In this document: positions 2,169 through 5,052 of the stretch, piece by piece | Position numbering within the stretch: the first letter of the stretch is position 1 | How the letters are laid out: the number at the start of each line of letters is the position of its first letter | DNA from: Amycolatopsis benzoatilytica AK 16/65 | GTDB lineage: Bacteria; Actinomycetota; Actinomycetes; Mycobacteriales; Pseudonocardiaceae | DNA length: 64,000 nucleotides | Assembly: GCF_000383915.1 (NCBI RefSeq) | Contig: NZ_KB912942.1 | Span: forward strand, 8,202,470-8,266,469 | Direction of reading: 5' to 3' | Position numbers and translations under genes: made by a program | Notes under the pieces: model-generated | What the model was told of the DNA's origin: nothing | Seen by the model: the letters and a program-made list of their open reading frames with translations, nothing else | Database searches by the model: none

Positions 2169-3011
2169 GTGGTGGAACTGCTGGGACCTGCCGAAATCCG
2201 CGGGCTGGCCGACGAACTCGACGTCCGGCCGACGAAGAAGCTCGGGCAGAACTTCGTGCACGACCCGAACACGGTTCGCCGCATCGTCGAACTCGGCGGC
2301 GTGCAGCCCGGAGACATCGTGCTGGAGGTCGGCCCCGGCCTCGGCTCGCTGACCCTCGGCTTGCTCGCCGCGGGCGCCCAGGTGGTCGCGGTGGAGATCG
2401 ATCCGGTCCTCGCCGCCAGGTTGCCGCGTACGGCGGCCGAGCGCGCGCCTGAGGCCGCGGAACGGCTGTCTGTGGTCGGAGCGGACGCATTGCGCGTGCG
2501 CGCCGCCGACCTGCCCGCGGAACCGGTGTCCCTCGTCGCGAACCTGCCGTACAACGTCGCGGTGCCGGTGGTGCTGCACTTGCTCGCCGAGCTGCCATCG
2601 CTGCGCAGTGGCCTCGTGATGGTTCAGACCGAGGTCGCCGATCGGATGGCGGCCGGACCGGGCAGCCGCACCTACGGCGTGCCCAGCGTGAAACTCGCCT
2701 GGTACGGCCCGGCCCGCAAGGTGGCCGCGGTGCCGCGTGCGGTGTTCTGGCCAGTCCCGAACGTCGATTCGGCGCTCGTGTCGTTCAGTCGCACCGACCC
2801 GGTGTCCGGCGTCGATCGGGAACGGCTCTTCGCGGTGGTCGACGCGGCGTTTTCGCAACGCCGCAAGACCCTCCGGGCCGCGCTGGCGGGCTGGGCCGGT
2901 TCGGCCGATCGGGCGGGGGAGCTGCTCGCGGAGGCGGGGATCGACCCGCGGACGCGCGGGGAGCAGCTGGACGTGCACGCGTTCGCCCGGATCGCGGCAG
3001 CCAAGTCCTGA
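2169..3011 (+). CDS. rsmA: 16S rRNA (adenine(1518)-N6/adenine(1519)-N6)-dimethyltransferase
   Basis: A 280-residue protein of normal length for KsgA/RsmA, starting at GTG 2169. It dimethylates two adjacent adenines in the helix 45 loop of 16S rRNA late in 30S assembly, using SAM. Visible motifs are the N-terminal [10 protein letters not shown], the SAM-binding [12 protein letters not shown] (motif I), the acidic VEID (motif II) and the catalytic [10 protein letters not shown] (motif IV). The C-terminal helical domain is present. It sits between rpfB and, after two inserted genes, ispE, as in mycobacteria. Confidence 0.97.
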
Positions 3012-3730
3012 TCTCGGGCCGCCGAGGGCCGCACGCGCGCCGGCTTCGCCCAGTCCTCGAGTGAAGGTCCGGACGTCGTCCGCCAGGGCGACCGCGCGAT
3101 CTGTCCCGCTGCGGCCCGCCCGGCTCGGATGCGGCGATGCAGCGGAACCCGCGCGGGTCCCGCCCCGGACTGGTTGCTGGCCTGATGGAATGAGTCCTGG
3201 ATCTCGCCCATCGTCCAGACATTTATGCGGACATTTCCCGGCAAACACAAAATCGCCTCGCGTCGCGGCAGGCGCGACCGGGGTCACATTGGTTCAACCA
3301 GGCTGTCGGCGCGGCTATTCCCGGTCCGCTCGAAGCCCTCGTCCGGCGCACTCGAGAAGGTGCGGGCGGCCTCGGCATCCGGGGGAAGCTCCGGTGGTCG
3401 CGAACCGGACTGTTCGGGCCCGTCGAGAGCCGATGGTTCGCCTTGGCGGCCTACCTTCCTCAGCGGCTGGTGCACCCGGCGGCGGACCGAGGTACAGTGA
3501 AAAGTTCTGGCTCTTCGGCCGAAATTCCTTGATCCGCAACCGGGTCTGCGTTGTCCACAGTGGATCTCATGATCGCCGTTCGGCAGGGTCTGCCAGGTCG
3601 GAGCACTGTTCGGCGGCCGAGGTTCCCGCTCCCGCGAGGCAAGACGGCCGTTCCGGCATGCGGCCGCCACCAGACGTGTGATCTGCATCCGCGTGCTTGC
3701 GTTCAGTCCGTGGGATCGGCTTTACTCAGA
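3012..3730. other. Long intergenic region between rsmA and the SAM riboswitch
   Basis: About 720 bp with no ORF that looks coding on either strand. The only clear signals are a perfect DnaA box overlapping a TCCA-N3-TGGA palindrome at 3551-3564. The promoter for the riboswitch transcript must lie in its 3' part, but no convincing -35/-10 pair was recognised. Confidence 0.6.
3551..3564 (+). promoter_or_regulatory. DnaA box (TTGTCCACA) overlapping an iterated palindrome
   Basis: TTGTCCACA at 3551-3559 matches the actinobacterial DnaA-box consensus exactly. The overlapping TCCACAGTGGA (3554-3564) is one of at least seven TCCA-N3-TGGA sites in the window. The site lies about 170 bp upstream of the SAM riboswitch. 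Function is unknown. Confidence 0.45.
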
Positions 3731-3825
3731 AGCGTCCATCCCGAGCGACTGAGAGACCTGGCTCGCCGAAGTCGCAGCAACCACCCTCCGCAGGGCAGGT
3801 GCTACCGCCAGGACCGATGGAGGCT
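3731..3825 (+). ncRNA. SAM-I (S-box) riboswitch aptamer
   Basis: A compact 95-nt S-box. P1 is AGCGTCCATC (3731-3740) with GATGGAGGCT (3816-3825), 9 of 10 pairs. P2 is GCGACT (3745-3750) with AGTCGC (3770-3775), perfect. P3 is CCCT (3784-3787) with AGGG (3792-3795). Conserved S-box unpaired blocks are visible: GAGAGACCTGG in the P2 arm, GCAACC after P2 (3777-3782) and GGTGCTA (3798-3804) before P4. The 3' strand of P1 contains GGAGG (3819-3823), the ribosome site of the leader ORF at 3833, so SAM binding should occlude it. The downstream gene is MetN-like, consistent with methionine/SAM control. Confidence 0.85.
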
Positions 3826-3832
3826 GTTTCCG

Positions 3833-3934
3833 ATGAAGAGGGTCACCCGCCCGCTCCTGCTGACCCGCCGACGTGTCGTCGACGAAGGTCGCCGCTCGGT
3901 ATGTGCGTGTCAACGCTCCATGGTCATCGCCTGA
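3833..3934 (+). CDS. 33-residue Cys-containing leader peptide between riboswitch and metN-like gene
   Basis: ATG 3833 lies 9 nt after the GGAGG contained in the riboswitch P1 helix. The central LLLTRRRVVDEGRRSV resembles, from memory, the short 'putative leader peptide' family (LLTRRxHVDLxRV...C) found before sulfur-assimilation genes in Streptomyces and relatives. It ends in CACQRSMVIA. The two Cys codons (3902-3904 and 3908-3910) stand immediately upstream of a segment (3915-3923) that is perfectly complementary to the Shine-Dalgarno region of the downstream gene. The likely role is a cis-acting translational sensor rather than a functional product. Coding is inferred from the ribosome site, the position and the family likeness. 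Confidence 0.6.
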   Translation: MKRVTRPLLLTRRRVVDEGRRSVCACQRSMVIA

Positions 3935-4032
3935 TCTTTCTTCCGGTCTTTTCTTGCACCGTCCACATCGGACGGTAATTCGATGACGCTTGGCGCGCCC
4001 GGAATCGGCGCCGCGCCCGTATGCCATGGAGC
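3915..4032 (+). promoter_or_regulatory. Predicted leader/Shine-Dalgarno pairing controlling the metN-like gene
   Basis: GCTCCATGG (3915-3923, inside the leader ORF) is the exact reverse complement of CCATGGAGC (4024-4032), which contains the GGAG ribosome site for the GTG at 4039. Pairing would hide that site when the leader ORF is not being translated. A ribosome on the last codons of the leader would cover 3915-3923 and free it. A local hairpin, ACCGTCC with GGACGGT, lies between them at about 3958-3976. The pairing is seen in the sequence; the switching is inference. Confidence 0.5.
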
Positions 4033-4038
4033 CCTTTC

Positions 4039-5052
4039 GTGATCACCGTCGAAAACGTGTCCAAGTCCTTTCCCTTCCACGGAAACCGTGTCGCCGCGCT
4101 GCGTGACGTGAGCGTCGACGTGCAAGCCGGCTCGCTGTTCGGCGTCGTCGGCCCGGCCGGTTCCGGCAAGTCCACCCTCGCCCGGTGCATCGCGCTGCAG
4201 GAGCGCCCGGACCGCGGCGTGGTGCGGCTCGACGGCCTCAACACCGCGACGCTGGACGGCAAGCGGCTGCGGGAAATCCGCCGTCAGCTGGGCGTTGTCG
4301 GCACCAAGCCGGAGTTGATCGCCGAGCGCACCGTCGCGGGCAACATCGCCAGCCCGCTGGAGCAGCTGGGCGTCGACGGCCCGCAGCGGCGCAGCAAGGT
4401 CGGCTCGCTGCTCGACCTGGTCGGCCTCACCGCGCGCGCCGCGCAGAAGCCGGAGGAACTCACCGAAGGCCAGCTCCGCCGCGTCTCGGTCGCCAAGGCT
4501 CTCGCCGCCGGCCCGGCGGTGCTGCTGGCCGACGACCCGACCGCGGGCATCGCGCCGGAGGACGCCGGCGCCGTGCTGGCGGTGCTCGACCGGGCCCGCG
4601 CCGAGCTGGGCGTGACGATCGTCGTCACCACCCAGGACGCGGACGTGGTCCGCCGGGTCTGCGACGACGTCGCGGTGCTGGACAACGGCGCCCTGGTGGA
4701 GCGCGGTTCGGTCCTCGACCTCGTCTCGACGCCGGACAGCTGGACCGCACAGGCGGTGCTGCCGGCCATCGAGACCTCGCGCGCCCAGTCCGCGAAGTAC
4801 GACCGCGCGGTCGACGTGGTGCTGATCGGCTTCGCGTCGGTGGGCGCACTGCTCCCCGAGGCGGCCAGTCGCTTCGATGTGGAGCTGGCCACCATCGGCG
4901 GCGGCCTGACCCGCCTCGGCGACACCCCGATCGCCCGCTTCCGCCTGGGGGTCCGCGGCGAGCGCGCGGACGCCGCGCTGTCCTGGATCGCCGAGCGCGG
5001 CGCGCACGTGAGCCAGCCGGCGCGTGGCCCGCAGAGCGTGGTCGCCGCCTGA
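4039..5052 (+). CDS. MetN-like ABC ATPase with NIL domain, catalytically degenerate, no transporter partners
   Basis: A 337-residue protein. GTG 4039 is preferred (GGAG 7 nt upstream; N-terminus ITVENVSKSF as in MetN); ATG 4021 is in frame but has a poorer site. It has the layout of MetN, the ATPase of methionine importers: an ABC domain (1-235) and a C-terminal NIL ligand-binding domain (about 255-330). Walker A is intact (GPAGSGKS, 38-45). The Q-loop Gln is missing (VVGTK at 86-90), the signature is LTEGQ (141-145) instead of LSGGQ, Walker B ends in DD (165-166) instead of DE, the D-loop Asp is gone and the H-loop His is Gln199. No metI or metQ lies nearby. It may be a pseudo-ATPase or sensor. 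The family is secure; a transport function is doubtful. Confidence 0.8.
   Translation: MITVENVSKSFPFHGNRVAALRDVSVDVQAGSLFGVVGPAGSGKSTLARCIALQERPDRGVVRLDGLNTATLDGKRLREIRRQLGVVGTKPELIAERTVAGNIASPLEQLGVDGPQRRSKVGSLLDLVGLTARAAQKPEELTEGQLRRVSVAKALAAGPAVLLADDPTAGIAPEDAGAVLAVLDRARAELGVTIVVTTQDADVVRRVCDDVAVLDNGALVERGSVLDLVSTPDSWTAQAVLPAIETSRAQSAKYDRAVDVVLIGFASVGALLPEAASRFDVELATIGGGLTRLGDTPIARFRLGVRGERADAALSWIAERGAHVSQPARGPQSVVAA

Follow-up and report, generated by a model that had tools for sequence, protein, structure and literature searches.

A probable two-stage leader in Amycolatopsis: a SAM riboswitch ahead of a cysteine-leader relative and a metN-like gene

Cysteine-rich leader peptides of mycobacterial cys operons, found without terminators, were described in 2005 (PMC1262725), and the mode of regulation of such actinobacterial leaders is given there as unknown; those of Mycobacterium smegmatis are cited as cysteine-responsive translation attenuators (Canestrari 2020, as cited in PMC13236596 and PMC9094748). 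For Mycobacterium tuberculosis, riboswitches that control short upstream open reading frames (uORFs) are on record, a B12 riboswitch with ppe2 (PMC11260477) and the Mg2+-sensing Mbox with rv1805A (PMC12810186). Here we analyze a stretch of 64,000 nucleotides from Amycolatopsis benzoatilytica AK 16/65 (contig NZ_KB912942.1, positions 8,202,470 to 8,266,469; hereafter the window, numbered from its first base), in which an S-adenosylmethionine (SAM) riboswitch, a short leader open reading frame (ORF) with cysteine codons and a metN-like gene follow one another. The arrangement is probably a two-stage leader, in which the riboswitch gates a relative of the Cys leaders that in turn controls the metN-like gene. 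A preliminary description of this DNA, made from the sequence, knew of no such tandem in print, and none is found among the matches listed in the open-licence literature; what was known already is the riboswitch-controlled uORF, and what appears to be new is the pairing of a SAM riboswitch with a Cys-leader relative. The parts of the system are as follows.

3733-3823, +, SAM-I (S-box) aptamer (RF00162, 58.5 bits against a gathering score of 44.4)
3733-3740, +, 5' strand of stem P1 (Rfam alignment)
3816-3823, +, 3' strand of P1, GATGGAGG, which holds the leader's Shine-Dalgarno (SD) sequence GGAGG at 3819-3823 (Rfam alignment, sequence)
3833-3934, +, leader ORF of 33 codons plus stop, peptide MKRVTRPLLLTRRRVVDEGRRSVCACQRSMVIA (conservation, profile)
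3870-3892, +, middle of the leader ORF, paired with the metN-like start region in the minimum-energy fold
3902-3904, +, first Cys codon of the leader, TGT, not conserved (Cys in 9/40 loci)
3908-3910, +, second Cys codon of the leader, TGT, invariant (86/86 and 19/19 SAM-linked leaders)
3915-3923, +, GCTCCATGG, within the leader ORF, predicted anti-SD of the window's clade (sequence, folds)
3935-3979, +, pyrimidine-rich, G-poor stretch 3' of the leader stop, a candidate resembling a Rho utilization (rut) site; overlaps the hairpin at 3958-3976
4024-4032, +, CCATGGAGC, which holds the metN-like SD, GGAG, at 4028-4031
4039-5052, +, metN-like gene, ABC ATPase with C-terminal NIL domain, start GTG at 4039 (PF00005, PF09383)

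The S-box aptamer that the preliminary description placed ahead of the leader, with an Rfam search as the proposed check, is recognized by the RF00162 covariance model at 3733-3823 on the forward strand with a score above gathering. Rfam likewise passes 38 of the 39 further loci that carry such a leader or a weak profile match (18/18; L173, 1/1; 19/20). Stem P1 in the Rfam alignment joins CGUCCAUC to GAUGGAGG, with seven of eight pairs standard; it is thus present, over a shorter span than the 3731-3740/3816-3825 first proposed. The 3' strand does carry the leader's ribosome site, as had been said, GGAGG being the end of that strand. This strand is nearly fixed, reading GATGGAGG in 75 and GATGGAGC in 2 of the 77 distinct leaders (86 leaders were parsed and counted, with L139, L140 and L157 excluded). 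The natural reading of this position is that a SAM-stabilized P1 would block the leader ribosome site.

A leader of the same kind, its ORF included, is found in all 40 orthologous loci, that is, the window and 39 orthologues; the latter are drawn from 56 fetched loci, the remaining 17 of which are distant homologues (25-38% identity) that lack both the leader motif and a SAM riboswitch. The ORF first noted at 3833 in the window has counterparts of 24-33 codons that start 5-10 nucleotides (nt) 3' of GATGGAG. Eight residues, L10, T11, R13, V15, D17, R20, R21 and C26, are invariant among 16 representatives, and all 40 loci keep the same eight without change. Pairwise codon differences among 30 unique 17-codon cores are 2820 synonymous against 1403 nonsynonymous, and variable columns at codon positions 1, 2 and 3 number 10, 5 and 15. 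Because it is conserved in 40/40 loci and drifts mostly at synonymous sites, there is good evidence that the leader ORF is translated and kept as a peptide. Two leaders from two genera, L139 and L140, have a long, variable N-terminal extension; their ORFs still start 3' of P1 and keep the C-terminal motif.

Both Cys codons named in the preliminary description are present as TGT, but only the second (3908) is conserved, in 40/40 loci, while the position of the first (3902) holds Cys in 9/40 and otherwise Thr or Ser. Some leaders have an additional second or third Cys at variable places. The invariant Cys is encoded by UGU in 86/86 parsed leaders and in 19/19 low-scoring SAM-linked leaders, 105 in all, whereas the first 1000 nt of the metN-like genes of the 40 loci contain 83 UGC and a single UGU, and four genes of the window contain 8 UGC and no UGU. 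Stand-alone leaders mix the two codons; in the A. benzoatilytica genome, L169 has TGC and then TGT, and L170 has TGC. We read UGU as a rare, wobble-read codon at a sensing position, and other attenuators select codons at sensing positions in this way. In the 40 loci, the first base of the invariant Cys codon lies 9-27 nt ahead of the end of the stop codon. From leader stop to metN-like start there are 74-130 nt in 80 of the 86 leaders and 175-227 nt in the other six; reinitiation from one to the other seems unlikely.

The leader profile matches 251 of 294 genomes of the family, in 44 of 46 genera (E <= 0.001), a figure that includes some stand-alone leaders, with about 180 genomes counted by profile match alone. 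In the order, it matches 100 of 298 genomes (E <= 0.01). RF00162 occurs in 295 of 297 family genomes, mostly in two copies per genome. Fifty top-scoring leader loci were fetched and all but one (L141) parsed; each of the 49 has an aptamer upstream (47 by SAM core words, 2 by Rfam) and a metN-like gene downstream on the same strand. Nineteen of 20 low-scoring matches pass Rfam and have a metN-like gene at 55-73% identity, the exception, L203, being a stand-alone leader with neither SAM riboswitch nor metN-like gene. Twenty of the 43 leader-negative family genomes were searched for a metN-like gene: 17 have none at E <= 1e-40, and the other three have a 37-39% homologue directly after another coding region, without SAM riboswitch or leader. 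By these linkage counts and by the leader-negative genomes, leader, aptamer and metN-like gene thus travel together.

The protein at the end of this chain matches PF00005 (ABC) and PF09383 (NIL) over cut-off and scores 201.4 bits to the MetN equivalog model TIGR02314, below its cut-off of 499.7; its closest relatives, 92-96% identical, are from Amycolatopsis species. A MetQ-type protein was sought through PF03180, which has no match in the A. benzoatilytica genome at E <= 0.001, with matches in 7 of 14 control genomes; by these searches the NIL-domain ATPase is an orphan. Because of the NIL domain and the S-box, methionine is a plausible substrate of the transporter.

When the profile of the SAM-linked leaders was run against 296 genomes of the class (E <= 1e-4), it returned 14 matches, 12 of them outside the family. 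Three of these precede cysteine-synthase-like (cysK-like) genes (L174, L182, L184) and five precede sulfurtransferase-like genes (L175, L177, L178, L180, L181), all named by eye; Rfam finds a riboswitch in 0 of the 12. Because the profile retrieves leaders of sulfur genes elsewhere, we count the window leader as a Cys leader in the wide sense: judged by its sequence, it is a branch of the actinobacterial Cys-leader family that lies behind a riboswitch. Membership in the curated Ms5788A family (NCBIfam NF042933, cut-off 45 bits) is not claimed, because no score comes near that cut-off; the window peptide gives no match, and 7 of 16 leaders match at E <= 10 with a best score of 14.1 bits. L174, L182 and L184 come from small genomes of another actinobacterial family, have TCAC near the leader end and lack a SAM riboswitch.

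Stand-alone relatives occur inside the family as well. Four second matches, L163-L166, are leaders of this type, such as LTRRRHIDFGRRTNTGCRG and MNEYLTRRRHIDHGRRTSTGCRS, with no SAM riboswitch; the gene behind L166 belongs to the sodium:dicarboxylate-symporter family (PF00375, 333 bits; below all NCBIfam cut-offs) and might encode a cystine carrier. The A. benzoatilytica genome has two. L169 (G000:C1:7470000-7473000, minus strand) encodes LLTQRRAVDFCRVRSSLCQ / LLTQRRAVDFCRVRSSLCQSGTSWR upstream of DUF4395-like and sulfurtransferase-like genes, and L170 (G000:C1:4104600-4107600, plus strand) encodes LLVARRHVDLLRVASALCRAVR upstream of a sulfite/nitrite-reductase-like gene, the genes again being named by eye. 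Their NF042933 scores, 30.1 bits (E 5.6e-6) and 19.7 bits (E 0.009), are below the cut-off of 45, and the same loose limit gives matches in 8 of 14 control genomes, none over the cut-off.

Whether the leader RNA masks the metN-like start was examined by folding 39 representatives, obtained from the 77 distinct leaders by shared-word clustering. In the window's minimum-energy fold, 3887-3892 pairs with 4039-4044, 3879-3884 with 4047-4052 and 3870-3876 with 4055-4061, so that the ORF is joined to the start codon and first codons of the metN-like gene. Across the representatives, the segment predicted to be the main partner of the metN SD lies within the leader ORF in 29/39, at differing positions: around codons M-L-T (-48 from the Cys codon) in 7/39, 3' of the Cys codon (+8 to +14) in 5/39 (the window, L122, L150 and L151 with GCTCC, L115 with another sequence), and elsewhere in the ORF in the rest. 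Pairing of the SD with the ORF is 0.55 against 0.30 in synonymous shuffles (p 6e-4), pairing of the start codon with the ORF is 0.59 against 0.31 (p 1.5e-5), and opening the metN start costs 9.25 kcal/mol, compared with 7.65 and 7.90 for two codon-usage nulls, the real leader exceeding the shuffled ones in 30/39 and 29/39 (p 1.6e-4 and 5.3e-4), where all p-values are optimistic because the 39 leaders are mutually related. These controls support a model in which codon choice in the leader ORF serves to mask the metN-like start.

The same folds bear on how such a mask might be lifted. Covering the whole ORF lowers the opening cost to 6.85 kcal/mol (30 lower, 5 higher of 39), a drop that is partly built in, as a pairing partner has been removed; when the cover is limited to the first 15 nt, the cost is 7.98 (20 lower, 5 higher). 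With one ribosome at the Cys codon and another queued behind it, the cost is 8.17 (19 lower, 6 higher), and a ribosome on the stop codon gives 9.29, with no consistent effect (8 lower, 11 higher). Because covering the whole ORF lowers the cost and a single ribosome on the Cys codon does not do so consistently, the modelling evidence favours release of the metN-like gene by SAM-gated occupancy of the ORF.

The two-stage reading can then be told as follows. SAM would bind the S-box aptamer and stabilize P1, whose 3' strand, by its position, is also the ribosome site of the leader. At high SAM, the leader would go untranslated, and its RNA would fold onto the metN-like gene at its ribosome site and start codon, keeping that gene off; the pairing is predicted and has the synonymous-codon control behind it, and the effect on expression would follow from it. 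At low SAM, ribosomes would load on the leader ORF and melt the mask, and the transporter gene would be made. Were Cys-tRNA scarce, ribosomes may pause at the UGU near the stop and leave the ORF covered, perhaps through queueing; this pause would prolong the unmasking or shield the pyrimidine-rich stretch from Rho. Transporter output would rise at low SAM, and further when cysteine is also low. A bolder version, which we regard as doubtful, makes the leader a Cys-dependent arrest peptide, LT.R.V.D..RR....C, whose slow UGU is kept on purpose and whose nascent chain, more than the hungry codon by itself, stops the ribosome, within a conserved, SAM-gated, two-input sulfur gate. If true, we would know of no earlier SAM riboswitch that works through a translated, amino-acid-sensing leader.

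Several points weigh against the two-stage reading, in addition to the relatedness of the leaders, the built-in part of the cost drop and the low NF042933 scores already given. The outer 5' bases of P1 are variable, and the leader SD of many species can pair over its inner part only. A run of Cys codons near the stop was looked for in the leaders, and a single invariant Cys was found. The sites that pair with the metN SD depend on the clade and lie outside the ORF in 10/39 representatives, and the total openness of the SD over the 39 is not distinguishable from that of shuffles (p 0.34). With a single ribosome on the Cys codon the opening cost is 9.01 kcal/mol (10 lower, 9 higher of 39, p 0.42). 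A conserved, covarying trap helix was considered and rejected: consensus folds of four groupings pair ORF and start strongly, but with only 0-1 double changes per trap helix.

The preliminary description had proposed a more exact mechanism, in which 3915-3923, four nt after the Cys codons, traps the metN SD, and a ribosome finishing or stalling at the two Cys codons uncovers it. The trapped segment does hold the metN-like ribosome site, and GCTCCATGG is the exact reverse complement of CCATGGAGC, the site lying inside the ORF rather than behind it. Perfect 9-nt complementarity to the metN start region, a match chosen post hoc, occurs in only 56 of 18,216 segments of 102 nt (64 kb, both strands); in near relatives of the window, by eye, the site persists but includes a bulge or a G-U pair, and in the window itself a ribosome on the Cys codon drops the opening cost from 12.5 to 9.2 kcal/mol. 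Yet this site is the main SD partner in just the 5/39 representatives mentioned, the first Cys is not conserved, stalling at the Cys codon brings no consistent release over the 39 leaders, and SD-ORF pairing in the window alone is within the range of shuffles (5/60, fraction 0.08). In this exact form the mechanism is quite unlikely. What the comparison of orthologous leaders preserves is the ORF and, in general terms, the masking of the metN-like ribosome site by leader RNA; the 9-nt pairing is one clade's version of it, and for that element the refutation named in the preliminary description applies in part. A reading in which SAM alone is sensed, with the leader a relay, its Cys codon sensing nothing and its peptide or RNA conserved for some other reason, agrees with the single invariant Cys and the equal conservation of L, T, R, V, D, R and R, and an Mbox-controlled uORF whose peptide has an unknown role has been described (PMC12810186). 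We think it unlikely, given that the same profile retrieves leaders of cysK-like and sulfurtransferase-like genes and that the Cys codon is fixed as UGU. It is more improbable by far that the product of the ORF is itself functional, a small protein acting together with the transporter, as the strongly conserved peptide and its linkage to the metN-like gene might suggest: the N-terminal part differs between leaders in both length and sequence, the ORFs ranging from a total of 24 codons up to the long L139 and L140 versions, and related peptides precede unrelated genes.

Another output altogether would be termination by Rho, with leader translation controlling termination instead of the metN start: the pyrimidine-rich, G-poor stretch 3' of the stop would load Rho when the leader is left untranslated or is read with no pause, and a ribosome paused at the Cys codon would shield it. 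The tna operon has a comparable arrangement, with a Rho site behind the leader stop, and the stretch 3' of the stop with its nearby Cys codon resembles it. In 39 leaders, the 45 nt 3' of the stop have a mean pyrimidine fraction of 0.65 and a mean G fraction of 0.22, against a pyrimidine fraction of 0.54 in the ORF; about 0.3% of 45-mers of the window attain both means, and 0.09% attain the values of the window's own stretch, although rut sites have no reliable sequence signature and cannot be called from such composition. The spacing of Cys codon and stop given above would suit this output, as would the outcome of a simple scan for intrinsic terminators, which finds 0 terminator-like sites in 3600-4100. 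In the literature, PMC1262725 suggests Rho for Cys leaders while calling its own prediction weak, and PMC12810186 reports Rho with a riboswitch-controlled uORF; on the other side, the M. smegmatis Cys leaders are cited as working by translation attenuation (PMC13236596). Some leaders are not pyrimidine-rich (L025, 0.52; L120, 0.46), and a Rho-type output leaves the synonymous-codon masking of the metN start unexplained. We regard such an output as possible, if not the expected one. Unmasking and Rho are not exclusive, and a similar remark on non-exclusive outputs is made for the Mbox leader in PMC12810186.

One neighbouring gene and a hairpin complete the map of the probable two-stage leader.

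2169-3011, ksgA/rsmA gene, upstream neighbour of the riboswitch region
3958-3976, +, hairpin ACCGTCC-ACATC-GGACGGT (similar ones in many relatives, by eye)

One SAM-I aptamer lies in the intergenic region from ksgA/rsmA to the metN-like gene. Just 5' of it, TTGCGT (3697) and TTTACT (3721) look promoter-like by eye, with similar words at the printed orthologues; this pair is absent from the output of the consensus promoter scan. Between the leader stop and the metN-like SD are two G+C-rich hairpins, at 3958-3976 and 3992-4017, and in Amycolatopsis a few double changes preserve the stem of the latter. A terminator role was considered for the second of the hairpins that precede the metN SD and was set aside, since TTTT follows it in one Amycolatopsis subgroup and not in the window (by eye). 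Elsewhere in the genome of about 8.7 Mb, a second SAM-I riboswitch (L001:1501-1634) precedes a gene identified by eye as threonine-synthase-like; in Streptomyces lividans, threonine biosynthesis genes are recorded with an S-box upstream (PMC8079986).

SAM and Cys-tRNA each report on a different point of one sulfur pathway. If the two-stage reading is true, a single RNA reads both in series and recurs together with its gene in many genera of the family; it would be evidence that riboswitches and leader-peptide attenuators can be stacked as modules. The working mode of the Cys leaders would also become directly testable, because the riboswitch provides an independent handle on leader translation.

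Compared with known SAM-I riboswitches (RF00162), the locus has an aptamer over the gathering score before a methionine-transporter-like gene, with the difference that the role of expression platform seems to fall here to the SD of a short leader ORF, and to neither a terminator nor the SD of the regulated gene. PMC1262725 reports no conserved RNA structures before actinobacterial methionine operons. The metL leader peptide before metNIQ of S. lividans (PMC8079986) likewise stands ahead of a methionine transporter gene; it is leaderless, no riboswitch is mentioned in the passage that describes it, and no sequence likeness to the present leader is visible. That peptide, called Met-dependent, has CMCRRMC near its end, with three Cys and two Met, and might also answer to cysteine.

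With the Cys leaders (Ms5788A and relatives), the present leader shares a short ORF, a [LF][TV].R.V.D-like motif, a Cys near the stop, a place before sulfur genes and the lack of an intrinsic terminator. It differs in having one invariant Cys, as UGU, in place of a run, in having its initiation site inside a riboswitch stem, and in having an SD, where the M. smegmatis leaders are called leaderless in the title of the cited work. In Salmonella mgtA/mgtL (PMC6460261), a Mg2+-sensing leader and proline codons of the leader ORF act together on one transporter gene, as SAM and cysteine may do here; the sequences are unrelated, and attenuation there goes through stem-loop B. Related in design are the M. 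tuberculosis relays, in which a riboswitch controls translation of a short uORF and, for ppe2, the downstream gene is described as dependent on it (PMC11260477). An overlap of the reading frames is reported for ppe2, whereas here 74-130 nt separate stop and start in 80/86 leaders; and the ligand here is SAM, with an ORF related to the Cys leaders that could add a second input.

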